From Bacteroidota bacterium (GTDB taxonomy: Bacteria > Bacteroidota > Bacteroidia > Bacteroidales > UBA4417): DNA of 57,782 nucleotides. The stretch lies in NCBI GenBank assembly GCA_013376995.1, contig JACAAZ010000024.1:1-57782 (forward strand), written 5' to 3'. A model generated the notes under the pieces. It saw nothing but the letters and a program-made list of their open reading frames with translations. It did no database searches and was not told the origin of the DNA. Shown here one piece after another: positions 4,625 through 31,943 of this stretch. The position numbers and the translations under genes are program-made. Each line of letters begins with the position of its first letter. Position 1 is the first letter of the stretch.

Positions 4625-5374
4625 TTATTTTTTTATTAAGAAACGTTTAACCTGGTTTTTGACATTCTGCATGATCAATTCACGTGTCCAGGCAACAGGA
4701 TGATCGCTCCATCGCTGGGGGTGAAAAGTGAACATCATCCGGGCCGGAAGTTTATCGACCTGTTCAATGATTTCCTGTGTATTGCGAAAGTTGAAAATAT
4801 GTTTACCGGAGACTTTATCACGTATGCTTACACTTGACCCGTTCCACCTTCTGCCGGTATCGGTCAGGTACCCTACCTCTTCAAAATCCGTGTCCAGGTA
4901 AGGCTCTCCTATGATCCCCAAATCGCGGTAACCGTATTTTTCCCAGAGTAACCGGTTATCATGTGGTGATCTGGGGCTACCATGCATGCAGATGGTTTGA
5001 ATAGGGGCCAGTTCTCGTAAAATTTCAAGGTTTTTGCAGAACTCATTGTAGGCTTTATCTATATCTCCTCCTGTAACATCCATGGTTTCATAGTGATAAC
5101 CAATTTCATGGCCCATGGATGCGATTTCCCTGATAACACCCTTGTCGAAGCTTTGCGGAACCATCCTGAAATAATAGGTTCCGCGTATGCTTTTTTCATG
5201 CTGTATCTTGGCAAATTCAAGAGAATTTTCCTTGCGTGCATCCACATCATGCCTTAATATGACAACCTGTGGAAAGGGAGACTGAATAAATTCAGCATAT
5301 GGTTGGAATCTAAATCTCCTGGATATTAAAGTATCAAGAAATTCCCTGTAGATATTTAGCGTAAAGTCTTTCAT
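4625..5374 (-). CDS. Polysaccharide deacetylase-like protein
   Basis: Carbohydrate esterase-4-type fold of 249 residues that probably removes N- or O-acetyl groups from the polymer or a precursor. The NodB-like motif 1 is RHDVD at residues 41-45, and the metal-binding motif 2 is represented by GHEIGYHYE at 88-96. Later histidines occur in CMHGSPRSPH and in FTFHPQRW near the C terminus. No signal peptide is visible, so it may act in the cytoplasm on a lipid-linked intermediate. Its start codon overlaps the stop of the upstream FemAB-like gene by one base (TAATG), indicating translational coupling. It is one of three deacetylase-type genes in the cluster. Confidence 0.82.
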   Translation of the reverse strand: MKDFTLNIYREFLDTLISRRFRFQPYAEFIQSPFPQVVILRHDVDARKENSLEFAKIQHEKSIRGTYYFRMVPQSFDKGVIREIASMGHEIGYHYETMDVTGGDIDKAYNEFCKNLEILRELAPIQTICMHGSPRSPHDNRLLWEKYGYRDLGIIGEPYLDTDFEEVGYLTDTGRRWNGSSVSIRDKVSGKHIFNFRNTQEIIEQVDKLPARMMFTFHPQRWSDHPVAWTRELIMQNVKNQVKRFLIKK

Positions 5375-6438
5375 TATCCTTGTTTCTTCCTGTCTCGCTG
5401 AAAAGTAATGATCTTGAAAAATGTAAGCACTATGTAGCCCAAACTTGCTAATAAATAGATAGGTTTATTGTTTACCAGCAGGAACCTGCCATAGTTAACG
5501 GTCCTGCCGCCGAACTTTGACTTGAATTCTCTCACTCCGTAGGGAATATCCGGGTTTCCTATTCCCATGAAATCGAATTTCTGGAATCCGTTTTTCGCAG
5601 CGTATTCAATGGCTGAGTATGTGAGCAGGACGCTGGGGTGGATTTTTTGGTAAGCTTTATCCTCGCCACAAATATACCATTCAAATAATGTCTTTCCCGG
5701 GCTTACCGGGCATACTATTCCACCAATTACATGACCTTTAAGCTTAGCAAGCAGTATAACCCCGAGTTTCCCCTTGTTGGATGCCTCAAGGAAGGTCTGA
5801 AAGAAGGATTCAGGAGGTAGTGGCTTATGGATCCTTGTACGGTACATTTTCTCAAGGATAAGATAGAATTCATGAATCTCTTCAACGGTCGTTGCCTGGA
5901 CTACTTCAGCCCCGTTCATAAGACTCTGCCGGGCTTGCCTGATCTTACTCTTGCTAATGCAATTAATTGTTTCTTCAGTATTGGCAGTGCGGACAATCAG
6001 GTTCAGGTGATCATGCTTAACAAAAGACTTACTCCTGAAAACGGGTTCAAACAGCGAAAGGTCAGTCAAATTCCGGATCTGGATGTAGAGTGATTTCTTT
6101 CGGACCTCTTTTATAAGTGCATCCAGGACAATTTCAGTCAGAAGTTCGGGATGTTCAGTATTTAAATCAATGATAGGCCCGCCATAAATAAGGGTCCGGG
6201 ATGAAAACTGACCCATCCAACCTTTGAAATCATCGATAATTACCGCCAGTAAAAGTATCCTGTAGGCGCCGTTCTCATCTTCCAATGCATATACCAAAGG
6301 CTTGTAGGAATTTACCGAAGCATACAGGTCGAACATTTCAGGTGACTGAAATATGGTACCATGTGGATGTGCCGAAACGAATTCGCTCCATTTTTCACGG
6401 TTTATTTCGCTGATTCCAAAAAGGAGTCTGAAATTCAT
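5374..6438 (-). CDS. FemAB/GNAT-type aminoacyl- or acyltransferase (copy 1)
   Basis: Double-GNAT-fold protein of the FemAB family (354 residues). Family members attach aminoacyl groups from aminoacyl-tRNA to peptidoglycan precursors, and relatives are a regular part of exosortase-linked EPS loci. The second GNAT domain carries the family signature near residues 285-311 (KFDFMGIGNPDIPYGVREF, then KSKFGG). A C-terminal hydrophobic helix at about 323-345 suggests membrane attachment, which is unusual for FemAB and fits work on a lipid-linked sugar. It is paralogous to the gene at 8874-9896, with the same GVRE-S/F-K-x-(R/K)FGG block. It is coupled to the downstream deacetylase. The substrate is unknown. 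Confidence 0.82.
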   Translation of the reverse strand: MNFRLLFGISEINREKWSEFVSAHPHGTIFQSPEMFDLYASVNSYKPLVYALEDENGAYRILLLAVIIDDFKGWMGQFSSRTLIYGGPIIDLNTEHPELLTEIVLDALIKEVRKKSLYIQIRNLTDLSLFEPVFRSKSFVKHDHLNLIVRTANTEETINCISKSKIRQARQSLMNGAEVVQATTVEEIHEFYLILEKMYRTRIHKPLPPESFFQTFLEASNKGKLGVILLAKLKGHVIGGIVCPVSPGKTLFEWYICGEDKAYQKIHPSVLLTYSAIEYAAKNGFQKFDFMGIGNPDIPYGVREFKSKFGGRTVNYGRFLLVNNKPIYLLASLGYIVLTFFKIITFQRDRKKQG

Positions 6439-6510
6439 AATTCAATCTTAACCCTGTATTAGCTTTTCCGGGCGATGTTTGCAGGGATTATTCAATCAAG
6501 GAACAATTTT

Positions 6511-6897
6511 TTAGGAAAAATACCTGGGTGGAACCAGGAGTATTATGGAACCGGCAATGAAACCGATCTCATTTGAAATCATGTCGTTGATACTGAAACT
6601 ACGATAGGTGAGGAAATACTGAATTCCTTCCATAATCGCTGCAACCACCAGCCCTGAAATAAGAGTCATGGGGATATTCATGCCTTTGATCCATCTTGCG
6701 ATGAAGGCATAGGGCAGGAATACCAGTCCGTGCAGCAGGTGGTCCAACCGGATATGAATCACCATCGTATTGTTCAGCGCAAAATTACTGCTGCTATTAA
6801 GAGGCAATATTGCAAGGAGCAGAAGTATACCAATATAACCCCAGAACAGCGTATTCCGATACCTGGCAGCCAGATTAAACAAATTAATCTTCAACAT
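6511..6897 (-). CDS. VanZ-family membrane protein
   Basis: Small inner-membrane protein (128 residues) with about four hydrophobic segments and VanZ-like signatures: an HIRLDHLLHG motif in the middle, then IMEGIQYF, followed by FSINDMISNEIGF (the usual E..Q, D..N..G pattern). VanZ proteins confer low-level teicoplanin resistance in enterococci, but homologues are common in polysaccharide and exosortase loci, where their role is not established. It sits between the FemAB copy 1 and DUF354 genes, 17 bases downstream of the latter, so it is very likely cotranscribed. Confidence 0.82.
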   Translation of the reverse strand: MLKINLFNLAARYRNTLFWGYIGILLLLAILPLNSSSNFALNNTMVIHIRLDHLLHGLVFLPYAFIARWIKGMNIPMTLISGLVVAAIMEGIQYFLTYRSFSINDMISNEIGFIAGSIILLVPPRYFS

Positions 6898-6914
6898 TTC
6901 TTGCCGACTTAGAG

Positions 6915-7997: not shown

Positions 7998-8015
7998 CTT
8001 CGCTGCTTCGTTATA

Positions 8016-8843
8016 TCAATTATCCATGCCGGTTAATGGTGCATTGATGCCTTTGTGAAAGAATCCCGGGATTGAAAAATCCTTTTTTCTCAAAATATAG
8101 GTGCGGAATATCAGGGATGGGATCATCCCAAGCACAACATAGGATAGGTAAACAATTGAATCCTTGAACAACCTCCTTGGCTCCTGGACAAACCGGTATA
8201 ACCATGCTAAACCGATCTTTTTAATAAACCTTGGCGTCGGCTTGGTAAAATCAGCGAGAATATCGATCACTCCCCCGCAGGGAATTATTATTTTGCAATC
8301 AAGGTCATCTTTCCATTTCTGTGCAAATCGTTCCTTCATAGGCGATGAAATTCCTATAAGCAAAATGTCTGGTTTGTTCTTATTAATGAAATCTACGATT
8401 TCCGGTTCTCCATCTTGCTTAAAATATCCATGGTGCCCTTCCTTAACCTGTATCCCGGGAAATTTTTTCCTGATGTTTTCAGTGGCTTTCTTATTGATCA
8501 CATCCTTGGCGCCCAGCAGCATCACAGAATACGAATTCTGATTTGCCAGGTCCAATGAGTGGTTAACCATGTTTGGAATAGATATATCCGATTTAATTGG
8601 GTAGCGAAGGAGTTTGGCAAGCAAATAAAATCCTCGCCCATCAGCTACCAGGATGTCAAATTGATTTGAAAAGATGGCAATTTCAGGGAAGAATTTGAAG
8701 TAAGGCAGAATCCCGAAGGAGTATCCGTAAAGTATCTTCTTCTGACCGGAGTCAATACTTTGCTTAATCTCTTGTACCAAATCGTCCTCTGTAAACGACG
8801 AAAGCTTCAATCCAAAGAAATTGAATGACTTGACTCTATTCAT
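8016..8843 (-). CDS. WecG/TagA/CpsF-family glycosyltransferase
   Basis: GT26-type transferase (275 residues) of the family that adds ManNAc, ManNAcA or glucose to lipid-linked acceptors (WecG, TagA, CpsF). Motifs in order: VADGRG at residues 66-71 (catalytic Asp region), VMLLGAK, GYF, PDILLIGISSPMKERF, CGGVIDILADFTKPTPRF and a terminal WLYRFVQEPRRL amphipathic helix that associates with the membrane in TagA. About 30 extra C-terminal residues follow, with a hydrophobic stretch. It probably acts early in repeat-unit assembly. Confidence 0.88.
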   Translation of the reverse strand: MNRVKSFNFFGLKLSSFTEDDLVQEIKQSIDSGQKKILYGYSFGILPYFKFFPEIAIFSNQFDILVADGRGFYLLAKLLRYPIKSDISIPNMVNHSLDLANQNSYSVMLLGAKDVINKKATENIRKKFPGIQVKEGHHGYFKQDGEPEIVDFINKNKPDILLIGISSPMKERFAQKWKDDLDCKIIIPCGGVIDILADFTKPTPRFIKKIGLAWLYRFVQEPRRLFKDSIVYLSYVVLGMIPSLIFRTYILRKKDFSIPGFFHKGINAPLTGMDN

Positions 8844-8873
8844 AGCTTAACAGGATTTTCAACAGGCTGATCC

Positions 8874-9896: not shown

Positions 9897-9986
9897 TGTC
9901 TATAGTAATTTCATTGCTGCTGAAAGCAAGAATGTATATTGATTAATGTTTTAAGGAGGTAGAAGTCATACTTTTAACAAGTTCTT

Positions 9987-11054: not shown

Positions 11055-11125
11055 TGCTTGATTTAATTGGGTTTTCTAATAGATAGTTACAAATCCGGAC
11101 ATATTCCTTCCGGATATTCTGAATA

Positions 11126-12340
11126 TTAAGATATTAACTCAGAATAAATATCCTCCAGCTCTAATTCTTTTTTTCTTAGTTCAAGGTTCTCAAAGGCATA
11201 CATCTTTGAATTCCTGGCAATCGAATCTCTTAGAACGGGATCATCCACAAGCCGTTTGATTGATCCAGCTAGCTGGATTACATCCCACTCTTTCACCAGT
11301 AAACCGGAAACTTCATGCCGGATAATTTCAGGAATCCCTGCATGGTAAGTACTTATAACCGGCAAACCGGCTGACATGGCCTCAACCAGTGTCCCGGGAA
11401 TGCCTTCCATATCACCGTCACGAGCCGTTATACTTGGTTGAATGTAGATGTCAGCCTTCGAAAAAAGTTCGTTTAGCTCTTCAGATCCATAGGCATATGC
11501 ACCTGTCAGAGTCACAATGTTTTGCATTTTGTAGACGGCAATCCGGGCTGAAAGCTCTTCTTTCATATTTCCATCCCCGGCAATGATCCATTCAATCTGA
11601 TTCTCCGGGTTCGAAGAAATATATTCACGTAAAGCTTCGAGCAGGAATAGGTGCCCTTTTTTTTCATCCAGCCTCCCGGCTGTTAAAAGCACCGTTTTAT
11701 TCCCGTTTGTTTGTTTATGCTCTGACCGGAATTTCACTGTTTCGCTTCCGTAGTAATGCACCCTGATCTTATCAGGCGGACATCCCAGTTTTACAAGATG
11801 GTCCTTCATGTTCCCGCTCATGGCCAGAATAAGGGAAGCAAATTTGAAAACGCGCCTTTGTAAATAGATTTTCCCCAATCCCCCGAAACGGCCGGGAAAA
11901 GAAGAATAATCATACCCGTAAAAAGAAACGACAGAAGGAATCCCTGCCTTTTTCATCACCCTCCAGTACAAACCGGCATCAGTTCCATAGTGCAGGTGAA
12001 TCAGGCTTGCATGCTGAGATTCAAGGTAACTGACAATTTTGTTCGATTCGTTCCTGCCGATCACCTTGAAAAAGCGATAAAGCAATTGCCCGGTCCGGGA
12101 CCTGTGCTGGCTGCTGCAGAAACCGGGAATAGAATTCAGGTCAAAGCCGGCATATCCGCCATCATTGGTTTTGTCGATATGCCTGGTATAAATGAGCCTT
12201 GGCCTGGCTGATATATGCGACAGAACCTGGTTATGGATAAATGTAGCCCTGAATTGTGATGATTTGCGAACACAATGTGCAACGATCATTTCCTGGTTCA
12301 TCCCGGGTATTATCAAAATTTTCCTACTTCCTTCAACCAT
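11126..12340 (-). CDS. Glycosyltransferase family 4, WcaL-like
   Basis: GT-B glycosyltransferase of 404 residues. The donor domain begins with LLTAGRLDEKKGHLFLLEAL and contains the catalytic region DGDMEGIPGTLVEAM followed by SAGLPVISTYHAGIPEII. The N-terminal half has LIHLHYGTDAGLYW, as in colanic-acid-type enzymes (WcaL/AmsK). Its first 28 bases overlap the end of the upstream asparagine-synthase-like gene, so the two products are probably made in a coupled manner. The start at 12340 was kept because the MVEGSRKILIIPGM opening fits a GT4 N terminus. Confidence 0.9.
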   Translation of the reverse strand: MVEGSRKILIIPGMNQEMIVAHCVRKSSQFRATFIHNQVLSHISARPRLIYTRHIDKTNDGGYAGFDLNSIPGFCSSQHRSRTGQLLYRFFKVIGRNESNKIVSYLESQHASLIHLHYGTDAGLYWRVMKKAGIPSVVSFYGYDYSSFPGRFGGLGKIYLQRRVFKFASLILAMSGNMKDHLVKLGCPPDKIRVHYYGSETVKFRSEHKQTNGNKTVLLTAGRLDEKKGHLFLLEALREYISSNPENQIEWIIAGDGNMKEELSARIAVYKMQNIVTLTGAYAYGSEELNELFSKADIYIQPSITARDGDMEGIPGTLVEAMSAGLPVISTYHAGIPEIIRHEVSGLLVKEWDVIQLAGSIKRLVDDPVLRDSIARNSKMYAFENLELRKKELELEDIYSELIS

Positions 12341-14130
12341 AGCCTTAATGAAACCTGTTTGGCCAGGTCGTAGGCACTGCTGTTTTCAATGACAGGTGTC
12401 AATGCATTCAGAGAAGAATTTCCTGCATCAAATAAATCACTCCTGTCCTGCCTGAATAATTTGACCCATAGCTTCAGGTCAAAGGTGTCATCTTTTTTGC
12501 GCCGTTTCTTGTGTTTGATGTAGGCCGGAATAATATTCAAAGGGAAAAAGACCGAATTTAACTGGGCCGGGCTGTAGAATCTCCCGGTGGGTAGATGCAT
12601 CAGTGAATCCAGGTTCTCCTTCAGCACAGGCAGATAAATGGATTGCCCCAGCTTGAGTGATTTTGAGTTTCGCTGGAATGCTTTTTTGTTCAGCAATGGT
12701 ACTGGCGTGCGCAGGATGAACTCAACAAAATCATCGTCAATGTAGGGCGATAGAATGCTTACATATTGCCTGCAACAATTGATTTCATGACCAAAGTATT
12801 TCCTGAATCCTTCAGTCAGGGAAAAATAGTACAACTGCTGGTACTTGCTCCCGATTGAGTTGAGATGCCTGAAATAGTGAGCTGTTCTGTCTATAAATTC
12901 CCCTCTGTGATCCTGTATGAGCTGTTCCGGGATAAACCCTTTTCTGATTTCCTCCCCGAGCAAATTATTGAGCTGCTCTTCAGAGTTTTCGGCATAGAAT
13001 ACATTCACAAACTCCTGGTTGAAGATATGCCCGACTGAATTGGCAGGCCGGAGCAGTTCGCTCCCAAACAAGCCTGTTATTACGGTTGTTGAATGTTTCG
13101 ACAATATGGAATAGCCATAGGTATGATTTGCTCTTCGAATAGTTCCTTTTCCCCCTGACCACATTACAGCCTGTGTCCCGTAATAACTGAAACGGCTTTC
13201 AAAGTTTTTATCCAGTAGCACCGGTGAATAATGGAAGCCCAATTTTTCCGATATGAGTTGCGGTATGCTGATCTCAATGCTTCCGGGCATTCCCCAGGAA
13301 TAATAGAGTATATCCTTTTTTGAGTGGAAGAGTCTTGAAAGATTGGTCCTGCTGTCGAAGCCGGAAGTGAGGGATGCACATAGTTTAGATTGGTCCTTGT
13401 TCAGAAGGTCGATGCATTCGTTGAACAATTCCCGGGTCTGACGGTAGGTTTCTTTCCAGCTTAGTGAGGTGTTTTGTGTCACTGAAGCAGTGTAATTGTA
13501 GTACTCAGTAAGTACTGCTGATTTCAGGTCATATGTGAGAATGGAAGATGGTGGTAAAGGCTGGATTCCCTTGAATAGTGTGCATTCACCCAGGGGATAA
13601 TCAAATATGGAATGCTGCAGTAGTACTACCGGATCTACTTCTGAGGGAACCCCGGGGAAATCGATAATATTTTGGATGGAAGTACTGATCAGCAGGAAAT
13701 CCTTGCTTTCGTGGTAATATATGTCAAGTAGGCCGCTCTTGCAGGAGAAAACCTGGTATTTTTCAAGTTCTTCGTCAATAAGGAATATGATAAAAATGCC
13801 CTTAATATAATTGATGAAGCCTGGGCCATCCTTTGTGATCATCTGCAACAGGTCTGCAGGTAATAACCTTGATGGCCTGGTGTTCCTGGAATGAGCGTAT
13901 TCGCGGTTCGTAAAGATATCACCAAGAACAATGATATGTTTACCAGCCTCTGTAGCAGAAAAAGGAGTCATATTCTCTTTATGCCTGAGTCCGGATATTT
14001 CGAAATTCTTGCCCTGGATCGATTCCGGCAAAACCTCAATCCCTTCCAGGTAAGAGGTTAGAGGTTTGACTTTCTGCCTTAGCTCAACGGATAATGGTCC
14101 CGGGGTAATAAGAAGTGTAATATCAAACAT
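12313..14130 (-). CDS. Asparagine-synthase-like amidotransferase lacking the N-terminal cysteine
   Basis: A 605-residue relative of asparagine synthetase B. The C-terminal synthetase domain has the PP-loop SLTSGFDSRT at about 253-262, used to adenylate a carboxylate. The N-terminal glutaminase-like domain is degenerate: the protein starts MFDI, and the catalytic Cys2 required for glutamine hydrolysis is missing. It would therefore have to use free ammonia or another amine, as beta-lactam synthetase-type relatives do. Similar amidotransferases are a recurring part of exosortase-linked EPS loci. With the GDP-mannose-dehydrogenase-like gene nearby, amidation of a uronic acid is a reasonable proposal but not shown. 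Confidence 0.82.
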   Translation of the reverse strand: MFDITLLITPGPLSVELRQKVKPLTSYLEGIEVLPESIQGKNFEISGLRHKENMTPFSATEAGKHIIVLGDIFTNREYAHSRNTRPSRLLPADLLQMITKDGPGFINYIKGIFIIFLIDEELEKYQVFSCKSGLLDIYYHESKDFLLISTSIQNIIDFPGVPSEVDPVVLLQHSIFDYPLGECTLFKGIQPLPPSSILTYDLKSAVLTEYYNYTASVTQNTSLSWKETYRQTRELFNECIDLLNKDQSKLCASLTSGFDSRTNLSRLFHSKKDILYYSWGMPGSIEISIPQLISEKLGFHYSPVLLDKNFESRFSYYGTQAVMWSGGKGTIRRANHTYGYSILSKHSTTVITGLFGSELLRPANSVGHIFNQEFVNVFYAENSEEQLNNLLGEEIRKGFIPEQLIQDHRGEFIDRTAHYFRHLNSIGSKYQQLYYFSLTEGFRKYFGHEINCCRQYVSILSPYIDDDFVEFILRTPVPLLNKKAFQRNSKSLKLGQSIYLPVLKENLDSLMHLPTGRFYSPAQLNSVFFPLNIIPAYIKHKKRRKKDDTFDLKLWVKLFRQDRSDLFDAGNSSLNALTPVIENSSAYDLAKQVSLRLWLKEVGKF

Positions 14131-14192: not shown

Positions 14193-15392
14193 CTATTTTG
14201 ATGACCGGTTTCTCGTCAGGTACCTGAAAAGTTTCCTGAGGTAAAGGGTGTACATGAGCTTAGGCTCGGTTAAGTAAATATCAGCATAGTATACTCTTCC
14301 GAAATAGGATTTGAGCCAGGAAAAAGTACTCAAGGATTTTTCGCGATGGTAATCAATATAGGTTCGGACATCCCTGGTAATGGAAAGCCATTTGTAATCA
14401 ATATCGAGGGGTGTAAGCTGTTGAACCTGCATTCCTGTAAGGTCCAGGTAAGCCTGGTAGAAGATATCCACTCCAAGCTTGGCGCCCATTACATCCCATA
14501 ATCCAAATCTCGTATTGATCTCTACCAGTTTGAAGTCGCCTGTATCATCATCTTTCTTAAATTCCACTCCGGCAGGCCCCCAGTATTTGTTGTCCTTCAG
14601 GATCTTGAGCGCTGAATCCAGCACAGGTGCTGCATTTACCGTTTTCATGTAGGATGCGCTGCCAAAATGAATAGGGGTGATCCTGAGTTTTTGCCCGCAG
14701 AAGTAACCCAGGCACCGTTGATCTTTAGTCATGTAGATCACCAGGTAAAACAGGTTTTTATCGGGACCAGGGATCATCTCCTGTATCATCAGTTCATCAT
14801 CATACGGTAGTATTTTCGACAACCAGCCTTCCACTTCGGATGCATTTTCAACCCTGATAAGCTTATGCCCGTGAACAATGGTTTTGAGCGGATCTTCCCA
14901 CCATTTTTTACCATACGAAGGCCGGATAAGGCAGGGATATTTAAGTTCCCCGATTTCATCCAGGAAATCATTACCCTTTTTGTAGAAAATGGTTTTTGCA
15001 ACCGGAACCCCTGAACGTTGTGCTGCCAGAACAAGCCCCTGCTTGCTCATCAGCTTTTCAGTGGCATTTTCATAGGAGTGATGGAAGAGGAAAACTTCGG
15101 ATAGTTTTTCTGAATATTTCAGGACCGGCAGGACGAACTTGTCGGAGGTTATCAGCAACACTGGCTTCTTCCCATTGGTACCCCTGAACTGCATTATGAA
15201 TTCAAGCCATTCTTCCTGATGAGATTCCGGGTCGGGGCAAACGAAGGTGCTGGTCCTTTTTAAAGAAAAACCCGGTTCACGGGCATAGCAATCCATTCCG
15301 ATGCACTGAATTCCCCTTTTCTTAAAATCCCTGAGGATGTCAATTCCCGGGAAATAAAGCCCCAGCACTATAACCGTATGTGAATGAACCAT
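14193..15392 (-). CDS. ATP-grasp carboxylate-amine ligase-like protein
   Basis: A 399-residue ATP-grasp enzyme, related to carbamoyl-phosphate-synthase-like and D-Ala ligase-type proteins. Such enzymes form an acyl phosphate from a carboxylate and couple it to an amine or thiol. Seen here are CLIRPSYGKKWW (ATP-binding lysine region), ELMIQEMIPGPDKN, and the metal-binding GPAGVEFK with LVEINTRFG near residue 315. The N terminus (VIVLGLYFPGIDILRDF) is the pre-ATP-grasp Rossmann part. The last 90 residues are specific to this subfamily. It ends about 60 bases before the asparagine-synthase-like gene and lies 3 bases after an SDR gene. The substrate is unknown; amide linkage of an amino acid or amine to a sugar acid is one possibility. 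Confidence 0.82.
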   Translation of the reverse strand: MVHSHTVIVLGLYFPGIDILRDFKKRGIQCIGMDCYAREPGFSLKRTSTFVCPDPESHQEEWLEFIMQFRGTNGKKPVLLITSDKFVLPVLKYSEKLSEVFLFHHSYENATEKLMSKQGLVLAAQRSGVPVAKTIFYKKGNDFLDEIGELKYPCLIRPSYGKKWWEDPLKTIVHGHKLIRVENASEVEGWLSKILPYDDELMIQEMIPGPDKNLFYLVIYMTKDQRCLGYFCGQKLRITPIHFGSASYMKTVNAAPVLDSALKILKDNKYWGPAGVEFKKDDDTGDFKLVEINTRFGLWDVMGAKLGVDIFYQAYLDLTGMQVQQLTPLDIDYKWLSITRDVRTYIDYHREKSLSTFSWLKSYFGRVYYADIYLTEPKLMYTLYLRKLFRYLTRNRSSK

Positions 15393-15395
15393 ATT

Positions 15396-16157
15396 TCAGT
15401 ACTTAGTTAGCCATGTGAAATGCTTACGCATGTCACGATATAAATATCCCAGTTTATCACGTAGGCTGATGATCGGAATTACCTGTCCCGTAACACCGGA
15501 ATTGATGATCCTGGTAATTGAGGTAAAGACCCTGGCAGGATCAATCAGGGAACCTGGAGCCGGAGTGCCGGTGAGTGCTGCAGGTTCCAGGCTGCTGAGG
15601 CTGGAAGGGCTGACAGCATTGATGGTAACACTGCCTGGCAACTCCTTCGAATATGCCTGGGTAAATAAATGTAATGCCCCTTTTGAGGAGCAATAGGCTG
15701 TTCCTTTGGAATATCCTTCAAAGCCCGCATTTGAAGCTATATGAATGATCCGCCCGTAGTTTTGCCGGGCCATATAAACAGCAACCTCTTTTGAGAGCAG
15801 GGCAGGAGCCATGAAATTCACATCCATCACTTTCGAAAAATCACCGGTTTCATAATCCTCAAGTTTCCTGAAGGATTTCAGACCTGCATTGTTGATGAGG
15901 ATATCAATATGTTGATTTTCTGAAATAATCCTGGAAATCAATGACTTGATATCGTTGATATGGGTAAGGTCAAAAGAATAGTAGCCTTCAAGCTGGTCTT
16001 TGGCTTCCTGGCTCAATTCATCATGAGCCGGTAAATCCAAGCCTATTACCCGAAAATTAGCCTCATGCAATCGTTTAGCCAGGAAGAGCCCGAGTCCCCT
16101 GGTGGCTCCTGTTAGCAAAATGTTTATACGGTCGCTGTTAATTGCTTTGTCTGACAT
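15396..16157 (-). CDS. Short-chain dehydrogenase/reductase
   Basis: Classical SDR (253 residues) with cofactor motif TGATRGLG near residue 17, the structural NNAG motif, catalytic Ser in HIASNAG and the catalytic pair YCSSK. The two arginine/aspartate positions after beta-strand 2 (GLDLPAH) favour NAD(H). It probably oxidises or reduces a sugar or a modifying acid during precursor synthesis. It is only 3 bases upstream of the ATP-grasp gene, suggesting a common task. No closer assignment can be supported. Confidence 0.86.
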   Translation of the reverse strand: MSDKAINSDRINILLTGATRGLGLFLAKRLHEANFRVIGLDLPAHDELSQEAKDQLEGYYSFDLTHINDIKSLISRIISENQHIDILINNAGLKSFRKLEDYETGDFSKVMDVNFMAPALLSKEVAVYMARQNYGRIIHIASNAGFEGYSKGTAYCSSKGALHLFTQAYSKELPGSVTINAVSPSSLSSLEPAALTGTPAPGSLIDPARVFTSITRIINSGVTGQVIPIISLRDKLGYLYRDMRKHFTWLTKY

Positions 16158-16187
16158 GATCTTTATTTAGCTGCCCTTGGTTCCTGC

Positions 16188-16841
16188 CTATTTTTCCATC
16201 ACTTTTTTTCCATCCCTTTTAACTACATAACCAGGATCAGAAATTACAACGCAATTTGAATCTATATCTTTTATAATCAATGAGTTAGGTCCGATTTTAA
16301 CATTGTCTCCAATCATGAGGCCTCCTGAAATAACAGCCCCCGTGCTAATACTGACATTATTCCCAATGACAGGAGCCAGGTCATTCTTGAAACCAATAGT
16401 GACACCATGCCATACCTTGCAATTTTCACCCATGGTATCCGGGCTAATTACCCCATAATAACAATGATAAAGCACTAGCCCACCTCCAATCTTACCATCG
16501 ATTAATAATGTATTCAACCTTTTAACAAGTATTTGAGAAATGAATAGGATCAATCCTAAAATTAATCTTCTAATGGTTGAGGTTTCACTGTGCTTCATAT
16601 TTACTCTGATCCGATAGTAGAAGAGGTTTCGAAAATCTCTGTATTTGATCATTAGAGCTAAAAAAAGGATTATTTGACTCGAATAATCCTCATATCGAAG
16701 TTTTTTCCACTGTGCCAAATCCTTCTTCAAATCAGACCTATCACTCATGATTGAATAATTAAATAGAGCAGGCAAAAGAATAGGGAGATAAAGAAATATC
16801 CTGAAGTAATGGAAGAAAGAAACAACGGATGAATACTTCAT
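16188..16841 (-). CDS. Serine-acetyltransferase-like hexapeptide acyltransferase
   Basis: A 217-residue left-handed beta-helix acetyltransferase. The C-terminal half has the hexapeptide pattern (VISPDTMGENCKVWHGVTIG, then IGNNVSISTGAVISGG, IGDNVKIG) of CysE/NodL-like enzymes, with the HGVTIG active-site histidine. The N-terminal 110 residues contain hydrophobic stretches (FFHYFRIFLYLPILLPALF) that may attach it to the membrane. In this context it most likely O- or N-acetylates a sugar of the repeat unit, in balance with the deacetylases. The gene is visibly more AT-rich than its neighbours. Confidence 0.82.
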   Translation of the reverse strand: MKYSSVVSFFHYFRIFLYLPILLPALFNYSIMSDRSDLKKDLAQWKKLRYEDYSSQIILFLALMIKYRDFRNLFYYRIRVNMKHSETSTIRRLILGLILFISQILVKRLNTLLIDGKIGGGLVLYHCYYGVISPDTMGENCKVWHGVTIGFKNDLAPVIGNNVSISTGAVISGGLMIGDNVKIGPNSLIIKDIDSNCVVISDPGYVVKRDGKKVMEK

Positions 16842-16908
16842 GTTTTTTGGTATTTATGTGCTTTGTATAAAAGCAGAGTCAAAAGATGCAGTTCTTTGGA
16901 AGCCTATT

Positions 16909-17949
16909 CTACAGTCCCGATTCCTTTAGCCATTTAACATATTCCCCTTTGGTAACAAGCCATATTTCATTTCGATGCCTGTTTAACCAATCAAAGACTT
17001 TAGGCATAATATTTTTAATAAACCTGGAGTCGAGGCTGGGATGGAACCAAAGATAGGCAAGGGTGTGATGTTCCAATGCCCTGTTAAACAATGTGATATA
17101 GCGTTTAACCTGGGTACTGTCCGACCAGTCGGGATAATAGTCAAATTCGAGTGTAGTGGTAAATTCCCATAGACCATGTTCGTCCTTATGTGGGAATCCA
17201 AGTATATTGGCATAATCTGTCCGGTAATTGGTAAACCCCATTTCTGCCAATGCCGGCAGGTTTCCAATGGTATGCCCCGGGTGTACGAACGAAGTTACAT
17301 TCTCAATTCCAAAGCGTTTTGAAGCCTGGAGCCAGGCTTCCATCTCTTTCCTGAAAAGTTCAGGAGAACAGACAACATCCCTGCAGTCGATGTGAGAGAA
17401 AGTATGGCAGCCGATTTCATGAGCGGTTTTTGAAGCGAGGATCTGATCAATCAGGTCAGGGCAGTACCAGAGCGGATCCTTATGGAAATCGGTACAAGGG
17501 TCATTCTCAAACCAGTCTTTGCCGGCATATTTCCAGAAGTTGTTTTCGAAATGTGGTAACCTTGGGATTTCAGGATGGGTTAGGTGCTCACCACGGGTGC
17601 AGCTATCAAGAAACAAATGCCCAACGGTGAGCCATGTAATCGGAATATTGTATTCGTCGCAAAGCTTCAGCAGCCTGGGCATGTTTTCACGTTCCTGCTT
17701 TGCTTTTTGAATGGCCAACTGCAAGGGGTCCTTGCTTCTTTTTGCGTATTGCCAGGCCCAGGCAAGTTCAAAATCAGATGATAGGATTACAACTGCTTTA
17801 TAGGGCTGAGGTATGAATGAACGCCAGTCAGCCTTTTTCTGCAGGCGAGGATTTCGTCCGAGGTAAAAATTAAGCTGTTGAAGGATGGCTTTGGCTTTTC
17901 TGCGCAGCATAAAATTGTGATCAATTAATTCAGGCGCCGGCTGATACAA
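16909..17949 (-). CDS. Polysaccharide deacetylase family protein
   Basis: Carbohydrate esterase-4-like protein of 346 residues. Motif 1 is SSDFELAW at residues 57-64, where the canonical second Asp is replaced by Glu. Motif 2 is HEIGCHTFSH at 177-186, with the H-x3-H metal ligands. FVHPGHTIGN and YLWFHPSLDS supply further histidine regions. No signal peptide is present. The reading frame ends with GEYVKWLKES, as in bacterial NodB-domain proteins of surface polysaccharide loci. The start overlaps the end of the GT4 at 17930 by 20 bases, so the two are likely coupled. Confidence 0.85.
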   Translation of the reverse strand: MYQPAPELIDHNFMLRRKAKAILQQLNFYLGRNPRLQKKADWRSFIPQPYKAVVILSSDFELAWAWQYAKRSKDPLQLAIQKAKQERENMPRLLKLCDEYNIPITWLTVGHLFLDSCTRGEHLTHPEIPRLPHFENNFWKYAGKDWFENDPCTDFHKDPLWYCPDLIDQILASKTAHEIGCHTFSHIDCRDVVCSPELFRKEMEAWLQASKRFGIENVTSFVHPGHTIGNLPALAEMGFTNYRTDYANILGFPHKDEHGLWEFTTTLEFDYYPDWSDSTQVKRYITLFNRALEHHTLAYLWFHPSLDSRFIKNIMPKVFDWLNRHRNEIWLVTKGEYVKWLKESGL

Positions 17950-18997
17950 TGCCTTTGTAAAGATTAGTCAGGGAGGCAAGGTGGGTTTCTTCTCCGAATA
18001 CCGATCCGCAAAATTCTTTGGCAGCCTTGCTCATTTGCTCTCTTTCAGCCGGTTGATCCATTAAGTATTTAACCTTGTCAAAGAGTTCATCCTTCGTTTG
18101 GACTATATAGCCTGTAACTCCATTCCTGATTATTTCATCATTTCCGCCAACTGCAAATGCTATGGATGGTATTCCCCATACACCGGCATCAATAAGTGCA
18201 ATCGACAGGCATTCTTCCCTTGAAGGAAGGATAAAGAGGTCAAACTTAGCATAGAAATTTGCAGTATCGGACCTGAAACCCATGAAGTGAACCTTGTCGG
18301 AAACACCTGCTTCCGATGATATCTTTTCCAGCCGCTCTTTTTCAGGGCCGTCACCAACTATTTCAATTTCAAAATCATTGCAATCCCTGCTTTTTAGCCA
18401 TCCGGCAAGTTCTACCAGGAATTCCACCCGTTTCAGCTCAACCAGCCTGCCAATGAACCCGATTCGGATGGGCTTGCCTTGATGGAAATGCACTTCAGCA
18501 GGATGTTGCTGGGCTGAATTGTACATGATGATACATTTCTTCACAGGAAAGCCATAATGGTCGCCTAAAAAATAATCCCTGAGTTCTGTGTTAACGAAAA
18601 GGAGTTTTTTTACGCTTCTCAACCTCGACAGCCATTTTAGGGTTGCTTTTCCTTTACTTGGGCTTTCGAAACGGTGAGCATGAAAATGCCAGATTACAGA
18701 TACGGAAGTAAGGAGGCTTGCCAGGGCTGAAATTACGGAACTGGCAAAAAGATGTGCATGAATAATCTGGATGTTATGTTCTTTTACTAGCCGGGCAATA
18801 CTTAATGCCGTTTTGAAATAGCCCGATTTTTGTACCCTCAGCAACTTGACTCCGGGCTGGATCTGCTGTTCAAGAGGTCCTCCGAAAAAGGAACAGAGAT
18901 AAACATTCTGGCCCGTTGACAGCATATTGGCATCGAGCAGAGCTTGTTTCTCGGCTCCGCCATAATTCAACGAACTTACCAGTATTAAAATGTTCAT
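17930..18997 (-). CDS. Glycosyltransferase family 4
   Basis: GT-B enzyme of 355 residues with the typical N-terminal SSLNYGGAEKQALLDAN loop and the donor-domain motifs IGFIGRLVELKRVEFLVELA and SREECLSIALIDAGVWG (E-x7-D/E region), then VGGNDEIIRNGVTG. It resembles capsular glycosyltransferases such as PimA/WcaL relatives. Its ATG shares a base with the stop of the upstream GT4 (18997), and its end overlaps the deacetylase start by 20 bases, so this is a tight three-gene unit. Confidence 0.9.
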   Translation of the reverse strand: MNILILVSSLNYGGAEKQALLDANMLSTGQNVYLCSFFGGPLEQQIQPGVKLLRVQKSGYFKTALSIARLVKEHNIQIIHAHLFASSVISALASLLTSVSVIWHFHAHRFESPSKGKATLKWLSRLRSVKKLLFVNTELRDYFLGDHYGFPVKKCIIMYNSAQQHPAEVHFHQGKPIRIGFIGRLVELKRVEFLVELAGWLKSRDCNDFEIEIVGDGPEKERLEKISSEAGVSDKVHFMGFRSDTANFYAKFDLFILPSREECLSIALIDAGVWGIPSIAFAVGGNDEIIRNGVTGYIVQTKDELFDKVKYLMDQPAEREQMSKAAKEFCGSVFGEETHLASLTNLYKGIVSAGA

Positions 18998-20202
18998 CAG
19001 TGTTGCCGGCTTATTGTTTTTTTGTAGATATCTACCATCTTGTCGCCAATGAAATCCCAGGACATTTCAGGGATCTCAAGCTTCTCAATATGTTCGCCCA
19101 TTGACTTTAATTTCGCTGTATCCGATGTCATTTCTTTCAGGGCTCCATACAATGCTTCAGAGTCATCCGGTGGAATCAGCATTCCGGTTATCCCGTGCCT
19201 GATCACTTCTGATAATCCCCCTACATCGGTTGCCAGTACAGGCTTGTTGAATGCATAGGATGAGATTACTACAGCGCTATGCGTTGCATCTGTGTAAGGC
19301 GCTACAACAAAAAGGCAGTTTTTTATCAATGCTGCAAGTTCATTTGTTTCAATGTAGCGATGAAGAAAGATGATCTGATCGTTTATAGTGATTACTTCCC
19401 GGTCAAACCATAGTTTACCTCCTCCTGCAATCACCAGTTTTACATCCTTGTTGCTTTCAGTGAGCCTGTTAAAAGCTTCAACCAGGCGATCCAGCCCTTT
19501 GTACCGGGATATACGTCCAAAAAAAAGTATATAGTTCGTTGGAGTGCTGAACTTACCGTCATCGTAATTGTGGTATATATCCAGTTTGCCGGTATAAACC
19601 TGGTGGACCCGTTCAGGTTCCTTGATAGCGAAATAGTTGACGAATTCTTTTTGCAGGTATTTGTAATGCTGCAGGAAATCGAAGTTAAGGTAGGTGTAGA
19701 ATTTATTTACAAAATTATTTTGCGTGCTCTCTTCTCCGCTATGCGACTTGTAATCGTGAAGTGTCCATAATTTGGGATAGCCGGGAAGCAGCAGGTGAAA
19801 ATAGCCGACAAACCCACCGGAACCATTGAAGTGGATCAGGTTAAAACCTTCTTTACGTATTACAGAAGAAGCACTTCGGATGATCCTGAAGTTCTTGAGC
19901 CACTTATCCCGTAGGATTTTTCGTGAAGGTGTGCGGACAAACCATAAACGAAAGGAATTCCCAATAAACTTTTTGATCTCATCGGGGATGATCTCCAGGT
20001 TCTTTTCGTGATCATTGGATAAGCCATACGGCAGTTGTGCAAGGTCCATTTTGAGGATTCCACCCTGGTATGAAGAGCCTGCAAAGACAAAGATCAGGGT
20101 GAGGTCAACCTTTGATGACATGGCTTTGGCATGTGAAAGGACATTCTCCACATTGCCGAAGGCTATAAGGGCGATTTTCAGCTTACCAGCAGAGTCCTTC
20201 AT
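18997..20202 (-). CDS. Glycosyltransferase family 4
   Basis: GT-B glycosyltransferase of about 401 residues. The ATG at 20202 (MKDSAGKLKIAL) was chosen because the upstream extension to 20238 begins with TTG and gives no GT4-like sequence. Motifs include FFGRISRYKGLDRLVEAF in the donor domain and THSAVVISSYAFNKPVLATDVGGLSEVIRHG near the C terminus. The N-terminal part (NLIHFNGSGGFVGYFHLL) is acceptor-side. The start overlaps the GDP-mannose-dehydrogenase-like gene by 20 bases. The donor sugar is unknown. Confidence 0.88.
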   Translation of the reverse strand: MKDSAGKLKIALIAFGNVENVLSHAKAMSSKVDLTLIFVFAGSSYQGGILKMDLAQLPYGLSNDHEKNLEIIPDEIKKFIGNSFRLWFVRTPSRKILRDKWLKNFRIIRSASSVIRKEGFNLIHFNGSGGFVGYFHLLLPGYPKLWTLHDYKSHSGEESTQNNFVNKFYTYLNFDFLQHYKYLQKEFVNYFAIKEPERVHQVYTGKLDIYHNYDDGKFSTPTNYILFFGRISRYKGLDRLVEAFNRLTESNKDVKLVIAGGGKLWFDREVITINDQIIFLHRYIETNELAALIKNCLFVVAPYTDATHSAVVISSYAFNKPVLATDVGGLSEVIRHGITGMLIPPDDSEALYGALKEMTSDTAKLKSMGEHIEKLEIPEMSWDFIGDKMVDIYKKTISRQH

Positions 20203-21484
20203 AATTTTCCAATCCTTTGAGTGAATCCAGCCTTGCAAGGTCTATGATCCTTTGGCCGGGTTTTGGTTTCAGTGCCAGGAATTCATCCTCCTTGTTTGTA
20301 ATGACCAATACCTCAGCCCAGGAGACAACTTCATCGAGGTTCTCTGACAACATCTGGCTTATATGGGGCAGTTTTTCTTCAATAAAGCTTTTGTTTTTAC
20401 CTACAAGCCTCGATAATATTACATTCTTATCATAAATCCTGATCTCACTCCCTTTACCATAGAGCCATTCAATAACCTCGATAATCGGGCTGTAGCGGAG
20501 GTCATCAGTCCCTGATTTGAAACTCAGGCCAAGTATTCCTACTTTATTCGCAGGAGATGATTTTATAAGGTTAAGAGCCAGTTGCTTCTGAATATCATTA
20601 CTGGCTTCGATGGAGTTTAAAACCGGGGTTTCAAGGTAGTTGTCATGTGCCAGTGTTTTCAGCGCTTTCAGGTCTTTCGGAAGGCAACTTCCACCGTATG
20701 CGAAACCGGGTTTAAAATAATAGGGTGAAATGTTGAGCTGTTTATCCATGCAGAAAATGCGCATCACTTCATGCGAATCAATGCCCAGGTTTTTGCAAAC
20801 ATTCCCTACTTCATTGGCAAATACAATCTTAAGGGCGTGATATGAATTGTTGATATATTTGATCAGTTCAGCCACCCTGATATCTACCTTTTCGATAGGC
20901 CCGTTCACTTTTGAATAAATGCCGGCCATGATATCCAGGGCTTTTTCATTGTCGCTTCCGAGTACCGTAAGAGGCGGATTGAAATAATCTTCTACGGCAG
21001 TGCCTTCACGCAGGAATTCCGGGTTTGAAACAACTGCAAAACCCTCATTTCTTTTTTTGCCGGAAGCCTTTTCAATGATTTCGCCGACCCTGGCATTGGT
21101 GCCGGGCAAAACAGTTGACCGGATAGCCACTATATGAAAGCTGTCTTTATCCCTGAGGGATTCGCCAAGCTGTTCCGCAGTCTGGTAGATGTAGTCAAGA
21201 TTGAGGTGTCCCTGGGGAGTGGAAGGTGTACCAACACATAGAATGGAAATGTCAGTTTCGTGTACCGCTTTCCTGTAATCCATGGTGGCGCTTATATTGC
21301 CTTTCGAATATTGTTCAAGGATGATGCGATCAATATCCTTCTCAACTATAGTAGCTTTCCCCTGGTTAATGAGATCTACCTTAATGGGTATGGTGTCGAC
21401 ACCAATAAGCTTATGACCGTTTTGTGCCAGGCAACCCATACCCACGCAACCTACGTATCCGAGACCGAAAATGCTGATGTTCAT
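20183..21484 (-). CDS. GDP-mannose 6-dehydrogenase-like nucleotide sugar dehydrogenase
   Basis: NAD-dependent four-electron dehydrogenase (433 residues) that makes a nucleotide-linked uronic acid. It has the N-terminal GLGYVG motif (residues 7-12) and the active-site Cys267 in GGSCLPKD (264-271). The sequence NISPYYFKPGFAYGGSCLPKD and the opening MNISIFGLGYVGCVGMGCLAQNGH resemble AlgD, the GDP-mannose dehydrogenase of alginate synthesis (whose catalytic Cys is 268), more than UDP-glucose dehydrogenases, which read GFGGSCFPKD. GDP-mannuronate is therefore the likeliest product. UDP-glucose or UDP-GlcNAc dehydrogenase remains possible. The gene follows the PaaK-like ligase with one base between them. 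Confidence 0.84.
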   Translation of the reverse strand: MNISIFGLGYVGCVGMGCLAQNGHKLIGVDTIPIKVDLINQGKATIVEKDIDRIILEQYSKGNISATMDYRKAVHETDISILCVGTPSTPQGHLNLDYIYQTAEQLGESLRDKDSFHIVAIRSTVLPGTNARVGEIIEKASGKKRNEGFAVVSNPEFLREGTAVEDYFNPPLTVLGSDNEKALDIMAGIYSKVNGPIEKVDIRVAELIKYINNSYHALKIVFANEVGNVCKNLGIDSHEVMRIFCMDKQLNISPYYFKPGFAYGGSCLPKDLKALKTLAHDNYLETPVLNSIEASNDIQKQLALNLIKSSPANKVGILGLSFKSGTDDLRYSPIIEVIEWLYGKGSEIRIYDKNVILSRLVGKNKSFIEEKLPHISQMLSENLDEVVSWAEVLVITNKEDEFLALKPKPGQRIIDLARLDSLKGLENYEGLCW

Positions 21485-21485
21485 A

Positions 21486-22838
21486 TTATTTGATATCCGA
21501 TTTGGTGTACATTAATTTTCCTGATTTTTCACGCGGAATGTCATCTACAAACCTGAAGGTATATTCCACTTCATTTCCTGTATAGTAGGTGAAATAGCCT
21601 GTTAACTCGCTGATAAACTTCCCCCTGTCTTCTATAATGCCTGGAACAATAGAAATCGTAATTGATTCATGTGCAGTCTGGTGAACCTGGAAACACTGTA
21701 TCTCATCCACAAGATCAAATAGTTTCCTGGAAAACATATGCCCGTAGATCTGTTTCCCGCTTTTTAATTTAAAAACGTTGTAAACCCTTCCCATCACAGG
21801 ATTGAGCTTGGGGAATTTACTCCCGCAGCTGCATTCATCCATAAGAAAGGATGAGATATCGTCATTCTTATACCTGATAAAGGGCATTATAAAGTTTTCG
21901 AGGTCTGTAACCACTATATAGCCGGGTTCATCAGGACCAAGACTTTTACCCTCAGCATCCAGGATTTCAACATAGCGGGAATCTGCATGAATATGAAGAC
22001 CCTTGTGAGCGTTGCATTCCGTTGCTATATGGAGTATTTCACTGGAACCGTACTGGCTGTATGTTGGACATTGAAATACCTCTTCAATGAGCTGGCGCTG
22101 GATTGCTTCAACCGGTTCTGCCGTCAGCCAGATAGCTGTAAGCGGGTAGAACTTTATCCTGTTTTGCTTGAGGAAATGCGCGTATTCAAAAAGTGAACTT
22201 ACATAACTTATCATCAGCTCCGGCTTGAATTTGAATGAAAAAGCAGCGAATTCACGCATACTTTTGTCATTCATATCGAAACCGTTGTACCAGCTTGTGT
22301 TTTTGATATGTTGCGACTTAAAATCATGATTCCTGAAATCCAGGTACTCATTTTCCTTCTTTAATCCCCAAATCCAGGCAGTTTTTGAACCAACGCTACA
22401 ACCGTACATTTTAGTAGTGCGGAGGTACATGGCAGTCATCAGGTCCTTTGCAGCTTCATCCCTGTAGAGTTTCATCGGGATCCCAGTTGTGCCGCCGGTA
22501 TTGACTACATCCCTCCGGCTGGTGGGCAGGTTTGAAGCTGTGATTGTATCCAGGTTATCCCGTATCTCCGACTTTGAAAGCAGGGGTATCTTTTCAATAT
22601 CCTTTAATTCCCTGAAATTATCCGGGTGAAATCCCGCCTTATCAAATTTCTCCCTGTAAAATGGACAGTTCTCATAGGCATGATGCAGTAGTTTGCTTAG
22701 CTTCTTAACACGTATATCACGCAACTCTTCAGCAGGGAGGTATTGATTTTTCCAGGCTATAACAATATCCCTGATTAGCTGTGGTTTCATCAGGCGATTC
22801 TTGGTATAGAAGATGGAATTATAAAGATGTTTATTCAT
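21486..22838 (-). CDS. PaaK/CapK-like adenylate-forming ligase
   Basis: Adenylation-domain enzyme of 450 residues, related to phenylacetate-CoA ligase and CapK. The phosphate-binding loop is NTGGTTGIP at residues 113-121. Downstream signatures include TYSQYGSSEI and a late DDIPREKSGKL that matches the C-terminal lysine region of acyl-adenylating enzymes. A CxC-type pair with acidic neighbours (DECSCGSKF) is present, as in many PaaK proteins. In polysaccharide clusters such proteins are thought to activate an acid for transfer to the glycan or a carrier. Here it precedes the uronate-forming dehydrogenase by one base. The activated substrate is unknown. Confidence 0.85.
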   Translation of the reverse strand: MNKHLYNSIFYTKNRLMKPQLIRDIVIAWKNQYLPAEELRDIRVKKLSKLLHHAYENCPFYREKFDKAGFHPDNFRELKDIEKIPLLSKSEIRDNLDTITASNLPTSRRDVVNTGGTTGIPMKLYRDEAAKDLMTAMYLRTTKMYGCSVGSKTAWIWGLKKENEYLDFRNHDFKSQHIKNTSWYNGFDMNDKSMREFAAFSFKFKPELMISYVSSLFEYAHFLKQNRIKFYPLTAIWLTAEPVEAIQRQLIEEVFQCPTYSQYGSSEILHIATECNAHKGLHIHADSRYVEILDAEGKSLGPDEPGYIVVTDLENFIMPFIRYKNDDISSFLMDECSCGSKFPKLNPVMGRVYNVFKLKSGKQIYGHMFSRKLFDLVDEIQCFQVHQTAHESITISIVPGIIEDRGKFISELTGYFTYYTGNEVEYTFRFVDDIPREKSGKLMYTKSDIK

Positions 22839-31942: not shown

Positions 31943-31943
31943 C

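Follow-up and report, generated by a model that had tools for sequence, protein, structure and literature searches.

A clade of asparagine synthase-like proteins without the glutaminase cysteine and a candidate amide-decoration cassette in a Bacteroidales surface-polysaccharide locus

Several described systems resemble parts of the gene set considered here. In Rubrivivax gelatinosus, the psc1 locus of an XrtA/PEP-CTERM exopolysaccharide (EPS) system unites, according to the accessible part of its description, a NodB-type deacetylase, a FemAB protein, the asparagine synthase wbpS, CapK and a GT1 (PMC3684757). In the Campylobacter jejuni capsule, the C-terminal TupA-like ATP-grasp domain of Cj1438 amidates glucuronic acid (PMC11800379, in excerpt), and in Caulobacter the deacetylase HfsH and the GNAT-type, putative N-acyltransferase HfsK modify the holdfast, the exact role of HfsK being described as unsettled (PMC5362036 and PMC8449245, both in excerpt). 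Here we examine a 57,782-nucleotide stretch of a Bacteroidales genome (Bacteroidota bacterium, GTDB lineage UBA4417; GenBank assembly GCA_013376995.1, contig JACAAZ010000024.1, positions 1 to 57,782; hereafter the window), about 53 kb of which form one surface-polysaccharide locus. Our focus is an asparagine synthase-like protein encoded in this locus, which we call AsnBL, together with the genes that accompany it in the window and in other genomes.

AsnBL (12313-14130) has no Pfam match at 1e-3 and reaches 46 bits with the NCBIfam model asn_synth_AEB, below its cut-off. A first-pass annotation of the window, made from the sequence alone, had described an asparagine synthase-like enzyme without the glutaminase cysteine, and this description holds: residue 2 is F rather than C, and Cys2 occurs in 0/44 AsnBL homologues (L070 is cut at its 5' end), compared with 14/17 ordinary AsnB rows from the same loci, the other three of which start otherwise or are cut. 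AsnBL thus lacks the Cys2 of glutamine-dependent AsnB. The ATP loop is kept: L254, T255, G257, D259 and R261 are shared without exception by the window protein and eight homologues, nine sequences collected by a whole-protein search in which the motif was not used. In the PDB, a profile of 45 AsnBL sequences matches AsnB, TsnB9, CarA and beta-lactam synthetase. For the structure model, predicted with pLDDT 91.8, the best folds are TsnB9, beta-lactam synthetase, AsnB and carbapenam synthetase; identities are 11-13% and TM-scores about 0.5-0.7. Foldseek against 23 AsnB-family chains gave E-values of 5e-20 to 7e-15. Both the ATP loop and the two-domain fold of an AsnB-fold amide synthetase of the beta-lactam synthetase type are therefore present.

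In a tree that included the window protein and left out two cut rows (L070, L104), 43 AsnBL and 14 Cys2-bearing AsnB are split by a branch with 100/99 support. Seven weak matches were also placed: five came out with AsnB, and the other two, L111 and L112, are drawn within the AsnBL part of the tree. By residues and tree, AsnBL is a separate clade of AsnB relatives predicted to be glutaminase-less. Its nearest rows to the window protein are two Cloacimonadota proteins (support 100/100), which suggests that AsnBL may have moved between phyla.

A profile search of genome contigs with a nine-sequence alignment yielded 53 loci, of which 44 are clear relatives (L066-L109); the other nine (L110-L118) were left out of the counts as weak matches. 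The 44 loci span five phyla (Bacteroidota, Cloacimonadota, Ignavibacteriota, Omnitrophota and Ratteibacteria), are related rather than independent, were read with flanks of at most 10 kb and include several short contigs. With hidden Markov models (HMMs) built here, we found a deacetylase near AsnBL in 39/44 loci, an ATP-grasp ligase in 33/44, a DUF354 protein in 25/44 and FemAB in 24/44. Ordinary AsnB (15/44), a phosphatidylserine (PS)-decarboxylase-like protein (7/44), SDR (5/44), AlgD (5/44) and CapK (2/44) were rarer; the divergent deacetylase-like family of the window gene deacA occurs in 20/44 loci and VanZ in 7/44. AlgD is counted five times, not six, as the 88-bit dehydrogenase of L078 is another dehydrogenase, and the ATP-grasp counts of L080, L091 and L098 include a more distant L-amino-acid-ligase-like protein (that of L080 was checked in Pfam). 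With the nine weak loci added, the figures are 40/53 for deacetylase, 33/53 for ATP-grasp, 25/53 for DUF354 and 24/53 for FemAB. DUF354 is among the most constant neighbours of AsnBL and also of AlgD in the order (4/6). One AsnBL locus, L071, comes from a cultured relative, Nafulsella turpanensis, and has ATP-grasp, a deacetylase and AlgD, but no FemAB in the stretch read.

As controls we used 40 loci of the same order centred on PF02397 priming transferases, one best locus each from 40 of 42 other genomes with a match (G015 and G017 were left out), covering 692 kb against 723 kb for the AsnBL loci; two control genomes (G007, G042) carry AsnBL elsewhere. These 40 loci contain one deacetylase, one PS-decarboxylase-like protein, two SDRs, one CapK, no ATP-grasp, DUF354, FemAB, AsnB or AlgD, and one weak AsnBL match below 60 bits. 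A Wzx-centred control was dropped, the window Wzx having only 4 other matches at E<=1e-12 in 295 genomes. Around AsnBL, the order of deacetylase, ATP-grasp, FemAB and DUF354 is similar across phyla, and the gene immediately before AsnBL encodes a deacetylase in 18 of the 42 loci with an upstream open reading frame (ORF).

In reverse, we searched the 295 genomes of the window's order (294 besides the window's). ATP-grasp matched at E<=2e-13 in 14 other genomes, 10 of which have AsnBL on the same contig, within a 20-kb stretch in nine and about 18 kb away in one (G167); in the stretches read of G185, G174, G086 and G157 (a 3.9-kb contig), no AsnBL was seen near the ATP-grasp. FemAB matched at E<=1e-20 in 44/294 other genomes, namely in 6/8 genomes with a strong AsnBL match versus 38/286 others (p=2e-4). 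It is often present without a strong AsnBL match, and the first AsnBL search had missed the AsnBL of some genomes. AlgD at E<=1e-80 was found anywhere in 6/294 other genomes, in 0/8 strong-AsnBL genomes and in none of 5 further AsnBL genomes of the order. The first-pass annotation had grouped two FemAB-like transferases, AsnBL, ATP-grasp, a CapK/PaaK-like enzyme, an SDR and an AlgD-like dehydrogenase into one module of six families. Linkage beyond that of the controls is borne out, whereas a single six-family unit is not, given the scarcity of AlgD, SDR and CapK near AsnBL and the missing AlgD in all eight strong-AsnBL genomes.

Around the six other AlgD genes lie FemAB with DUF354 in three cases, DUF354 alone in one and CapK in three; CapK, AlgD and FemAB stand together in 2/6 (L160, L161). 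In L161, apart from the position of VanZ, the genes VanZ, deacA, DUF354, FemAB, AlgD and CapK are arranged as in the window; its 13.7-kb contig carries neither AsnBL nor ATP-grasp. In G119, of the same genus as the window, CapK, FemAB, DUF354, VanZ, deacA, the priming transferase, a Wzi-like gene and an exosortase follow the window's order, and the 20 kb examined, which start at the end of a contig, show no AsnBL. Because G119 and L161 keep these genes and show no AsnBL in the stretches read, the locus appears to consist of a frame, which in G119 also includes FemAB, deacetylase and DUF354, and an exchangeable cassette. An exosortase near the FemAB end is also seen in G119 and G156.

Enzymes of varying kind that might supply or modify an acid lie just upstream of AsnBL in 7/44 loci. 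A 2-hydroxyacid dehydrogenase follows the ATP-grasp gene in L068, L075 and L076, and an SDR does so in L072; L069 has a methyltransferase, and the sister loci L066 and L067 have KAS III, an SDR and a protein without Pfam match. These varied upstream enzymes look like carboxylic-acid suppliers or modifiers. The two Cloacimonadota KAS III proteins (FabH-like; L066:6854-7909 and L067:2200-3258) lie with SDRs between deacetylase and AsnBL. In L036, gene length had hinted at an ATP-grasp or SDR immediately following AsnBL, but pairwise comparison gave no support for this.

In the window, positions 5374-22838 hold 16 accepted genes, all on the minus strand, with intergenic gaps of -56 to 90 bases; the one plus-strand ORF inside (8164-8541, 125 aa) overlaps the WecG gene. 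Families were called by Pfam, NCBIfam and PDB sequence searches, and structure models were compared by Foldseek. All families named in the first-pass annotation lie on one strand in this interval, as it had placed them; deacA, deacB, DUF354, VanZ, WecG, the hexapeptide transferase, the third deacetylase and the exosortase were missing from it. The genes are as follows.

440..1042, plus strand: exosortase (XrtX-like), PF09721 39.6 bits, convergent with the polysaccharide operon
1016..2692, minus strand: frame gene for what we take to be a Wzi-like protein (no Pfam match at 1e-5), homologues in the same place in G119 (763 bits) and G156 (579 bits)
2834..4456, minus strand: priming glycosyl-phosphate transferase, PF02397 83 bits
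4625..5374, minus strand: deacA, divergent deacetylase-like protein, RHDVD kept, second His of HxxxH absent (by eye)
5374..6438, minus strand: FemAB-like transferase 1, PF02388 44 bits, PF13480 50 bits
6511..6897, minus strand: VanZ-like membrane protein, PF04892 41 bits
6915..7997, minus strand: DUF354 protein, PF04007 59 bits, probably a glycosyltransferase of what we presume to be GT-B-type fold
8016..8843, minus strand: WecG/TagA/CpsF glycosyltransferase, PF03808 153 bits
8874..9896, minus strand: FemAB-like transferase 2, PF02388 33 bits, PF04339 33 bits
9987..11054, minus strand: GT4 glycosyltransferase, PF00534
11126..12340, minus strand: GT4 glycosyltransferase, PF00534, 28-base overlap with AsnBL
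12313..14130, minus strand: AsnBL, predicted AsnB-fold amide synthetase without glutaminase Cys2 (profile, motif, fold, tree)
14193..15392, minus strand: ATP-grasp ligase, CPSase_L_D2 22.5 bits, just above cut-off, and fold
15396..16157, minus strand: SDR oxidoreductase, PF00106 140 bits, 3-base gap to ATP-grasp
16188..16841, minus strand: hexapeptide acetyltransferase (serine acetyltransferase-like), PF00132, EpsC 68 bits, below cut-off
16909..17949, minus strand: deacB, polysaccharide deacetylase, PF01522 26 bits, metal-site residues kept
17930..18997, minus strand: GT4 glycosyltransferase, PF00534
18997..20238, minus strand: GT4 glycosyltransferase, PF00534, true start probably a later ATG
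20183..21484, minus strand: GDP-mannose 6-dehydrogenase (AlgD-like), PDB 1mfz 447 bits
21486..22838, minus strand: CapK/PaaK-like adenylate-forming enzyme, NCBIfam PaaK-type below cut-offs, PDB 4r1l 98 bits
39451-40302: third deacetylase, outside the 5374-22838 interval

In the 540-aa priming transferase (2834-4456), PF02397 is matched by the C-terminal part only, and similar partial matches in long frames recur across other genomes of the order. A PDDEXK_3 nuclease-family gene (47345-47722) also lies within the polysaccharide locus.

The ATP-grasp model (pLDDT 88) matches PurK, 2pn1 and L-amino acid ligases including RizA and 3vot, and all 18 aligned rows have E277, E291 and N293, so that the ATP-grasp fold and its conserved metal-binding acidic residues are both found. 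By fold and conserved residues, AsnBL and the ATP-grasp ligase belong to amide-forming families, as the first-pass annotation had proposed. In a 20-row tree, the window ATP-grasp groups (91/91) with eight AsnBL-adjacent ATP-grasps, while those of L071 and L073, likewise AsnBL-adjacent, fall beside the ones that adjoin PS-decarboxylase-like genes; the branch dividing these groups is weakly supported (62/36), and the window protein sits on a long branch of its own. All seven PS-decarboxylase-like genes (L068, L071, L073, L076, L077, L083, L086) directly adjoin the ATP-grasp gene. PF02666 was found in the one protein tested, a GS motif was seen by eye at the C-termini in 7/7, and the LGST motif is present in none of them. 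Such a pair could make an ethanolamine-type amide. The window has no PS-decarboxylase-like gene, and 3 of the 7 loci that do also carry AlgD.

Among the deacetylases, deacB retains D59, E61, H182 and H186, conserved in 18/18 rows, so its metal site is intact; deacA, whose conserved positions were examined in 22 rows, has no Pfam or NCBIfam match at 1e-3. Both FemAB-like proteins score above the Pfam cut-off for PF02388 and thus belong by profile to the FemABX family of aminoacyl-tRNA-dependent transferases, and may use aminoacyl-tRNA. Against TIGR03019, the equivalog of XrtA/PEP-CTERM systems, FemAB 1 reaches 35 bits (cut-off 260) and FemAB 2 has no match, so neither counts as an equivalog. 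The exosortase at 440-1042 is the only PF09721 match found in the genome and scores 66 bits with exo_archaeo (cut-off 23) and 95 bits with XrtX (cut-off 170); an exosortase thus lies near the locus as in the XrtA/PEP-CTERM EPS system, but it resembles XrtX without reaching that model's cut-off. The exosortase was rejected as a constant partner of AsnBL, since phmmer with the window's exosortase over L066-L118, the controls and L159-L173 matched control L121 only.

The dehydrogenase at 20183-21484 matches AlgD over its full length (1mfz, residues 1-433; 447 bits) with GGSCLPKD aligned, and the next-best PDB match is a UDP-glucose dehydrogenase at 232 bits. Closer to AlgD than to UDP-glucose dehydrogenases and carrying the catalytic Cys motif, it is of the GDP-mannose type as judged from homology, in agreement with the first-pass call. 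Four weaker matches of the superfamily occur elsewhere in the genome, and a Pfam scan of 40 window proteins revealed neither an alginate polymerase nor any other gene of alginate synthesis. The CapK-like protein has no Pfam match and stays under the NCBIfam PaaK-type cut-offs, while its match to phenylacetate-CoA ligase (4r1l, 98 bits) establishes PaaK homology. The SDR finds 3-hydroxyacyl/3-oxoacyl reductases in the PDB at 1e-20. At 46125-49965, a trio consisting of a UDP-GlcNAc 2-epimerase family gene, an epimerase with Polysacc_synt_C and an FnlA-like gene (571 bits, under its 730 cut-off) presumably points to an L-FucNAc-type amino sugar. The locus can therefore probably make both an amino sugar (FnlA-like) and a uronic acid (AlgD), and both kinds of acceptor would then exist. 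A CDP-3,6-dideoxyhexose set is found at 29732-34343, with RfbH (719 bits), CDP-glucose 4,6-dehydratase (469 bits), glucose-1-phosphate cytidylyltransferase (310 bits), an E3-like reductase and an RmlC-like epimerase.

Amide decoration of the polysaccharide is well supported as a class of predicted function. From the observed families, conserved residues, clade and gene linkage, we infer substrates, acceptor and reaction order as follows. The interval would serve for decoration within a surface-polysaccharide locus of variable content that lies beside the genome's only exosortase found, with a frame (FemAB, DUF354, VanZ, deacetylase, priming transferase, Wzi, exosortase) carrying a cassette centred on AsnBL and ATP-grasp. 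Because the ATP loop is kept and the glutaminase lost, AsnBL should activate a carboxylate by adenylation and couple it to some amine that is not ammonia from glutamine, like beta-lactam synthetase. The deacetylases would free amino groups on amino sugars, for which the window has an L-FucNAc-type pathway, the SDR could supply a reduced acid, and AsnBL with ATP-grasp would attach this as a new (hydroxy)acyl or aminoacyl group in amide linkage. A further acyl or aminoacyl group might come from the FemAB proteins, and AlgD with CapK might add mannuronic acid, maybe as a second target. We favour freed amino groups as acceptor because deacetylases are the steadiest partner of AsnBL and AlgD is not. 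That the AsnBL and ATP-grasp cassette re-acylates deacetylase-freed amino groups as amides is our tentative first choice. More doubtful is a broader proposal, in which this unnamed AsnB clade, ATP-grasp and a CE4-type deacetylase would form a plug-in cassette that deacetylates and then amide-links, present in at least five phyla with exchangeable acid-supply enzymes; if true, cells could swap coat chemistry via such a cassette.

A number of observations weigh against re-acylation by a deacetylase-linked cassette. Deacetylase, ATP-grasp and FemAB occur all together in just 18/44 loci; no ATP-grasp was seen in 11/44, no FemAB in 20/44 and no deacetylase in 5/44, and L079, at 21.6 kb, lacks all three. 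Most loci have no acid-supply enzyme between deacetylase and AsnBL. Deacetylases are also present in loci without re-acylation, and, as deacA lacks the canonical second His, the deacetylase count may include inactive proteins. Short flanks and contigs mean that undercounting contributes to the absences of AlgD and CapK. All 45 AsnBL of the larger set likewise share the ATP-loop residues (LTxGxDxR), but the 44-locus scan used an ATP-loop peptide pattern, so that invariance there arises partly by construction. Finally, the neighbourhood HMMs were trained on the very loci counted; with the window proteins alone as queries, the figures are 30/44 vs 1/40 for deacetylase, 23/44 vs 0/40 for FemAB, 25/44 vs 0/40 for DUF354 and 15/44 vs 0/40 for ATP-grasp.

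Alternatively, AlgD would make GDP-mannuronate, and AsnBL and/or ATP-grasp would amidate the mannuronic acid carboxyl with an amine or amino acid. The strong AlgD assignment speaks for this, as does the amide that the C-terminal domain of Cj1438 forms at C6 of glucuronic acid with ethanolamine-P or serinol-P, according to the excerpted account (PMC11800379). AlgD also lies near AsnBL in 5/44 loci as against 0/40 controls, in an order where 6/294 other genomes have it, and the PS-decarboxylase-like gene next to ATP-grasp would fit an ethanolamine amide, with AlgD in 3/7 such loci. The window, however, lacks that gene, the flanks read of 39/44 AsnBL hold no AlgD, and AlgD is absent from the 8 strong-AsnBL and 5 further AsnBL genomes, in which other NDP-hexose dehydrogenases were not searched. 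We regard this route as rather unlikely. The first-pass proposal of uronic-acid amidation thus survives as amide decoration in general; a uronic acid as the sole acceptor is not well supported, the steady presence of deacetylases (39/44) suggesting freed amino groups.

Less probable still is that AsnBL and ATP-grasp make a small amide, dipeptide-like or hydroxyacyl, for activation by CapK and attachment by FemAB. Such a supply line would suit the matches of the ATP-grasp model, which include the L-amino acid ligases RizA and 3vot, as well as the joint CapK, AlgD and FemAB of L160 and L161 and the CapK with FemAB of G119 (no AsnBL in the stretch read), but CapK is near AsnBL in 2/44 loci and FemAB was not seen in 20/44. 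Ordinary crowding, with unrelated neighbours each acting separately, is very improbable: polysaccharide loci are mosaics, and SDR (5/44 vs 2/40) and CapK (2/44 vs 1/40) show no enrichment, but deacetylase, ATP-grasp, FemAB and DUF354 far exceed the 0-1 found in 40 controls and keep a similar order over phyla.

Amide decorations alter the charge, stickiness and recognition of bacterial coats. To our knowledge, few of the FemAB, AsnB-like and CapK genes in polysaccharide loci with an exosortase have been assigned a function. A glutaminase-less clade accompanied by deacetylase and ATP-grasp narrows this question to a few purified-enzyme assays, and the AsnBL clade offers a genome marker for seeking amide-decorated polysaccharides.

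Compared with known enzymes, AsnBL shares the AsnB fold with beta-lactam and carbapenam synthetases and TsnB9, its best fold matches, whereas these are natural-product enzymes rather than polysaccharide genes and are 11-13% identical. Beta-lactam synthetase is likewise without glutaminase function. The window dehydrogenase is a full-length homologue of alginate AlgD, yet no alginate genes were recognised in the window. Like psc1, as far as its excerpted description goes, the window locus combines deacetylase, FemAB, an asparagine synthase-like protein and CapK, and it is flanked by an exosortase. It differs in that the psc1 asparagine synthases are annotated as glutamine-hydrolysing in 2/3 cases while AsnBL lacks Cys2, and in having both ATP-grasp and AlgD, neither of which appears in that excerpt (PMC3684757); the XrtX-like exosortase and the 35 bits of FemAB 1 against a TIGR03019 cut-off of 260 are also unlike XrtA loci. 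Like Cj1438, the window encodes an ATP-grasp ligase by family; that of Cj1438 forms its amide with a uronic acid of the capsule. The Cj1438 domain is fused to a GT2, and its excerpted description contains no AsnB-like partner (PMC11800379). With HfsH and HfsK it shares a deacetylase and putative acylation enzymes, while AsnBL, ATP-grasp and AlgD are not part of their description as excerpted. A glutaminase-less AsnB with ATP-grasp and deacetylase is combined in none of the psc1, Cj1438 and HfsH/HfsK excerpts, and no description of this gene set was found in the open-access literature (subscription papers lay outside the search). There, FemAB, asparagine synthase, polysaccharide deacetylase and exopolysaccharide appear together in PMC3684757 only, and asparagine synthase, polysaccharide deacetylase, ATP-grasp and gene cluster in PMC4155827 only. 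As far as sequence comparison can tell, the set is a recurrent, modular variant within the known types of polysaccharide decoration loci.

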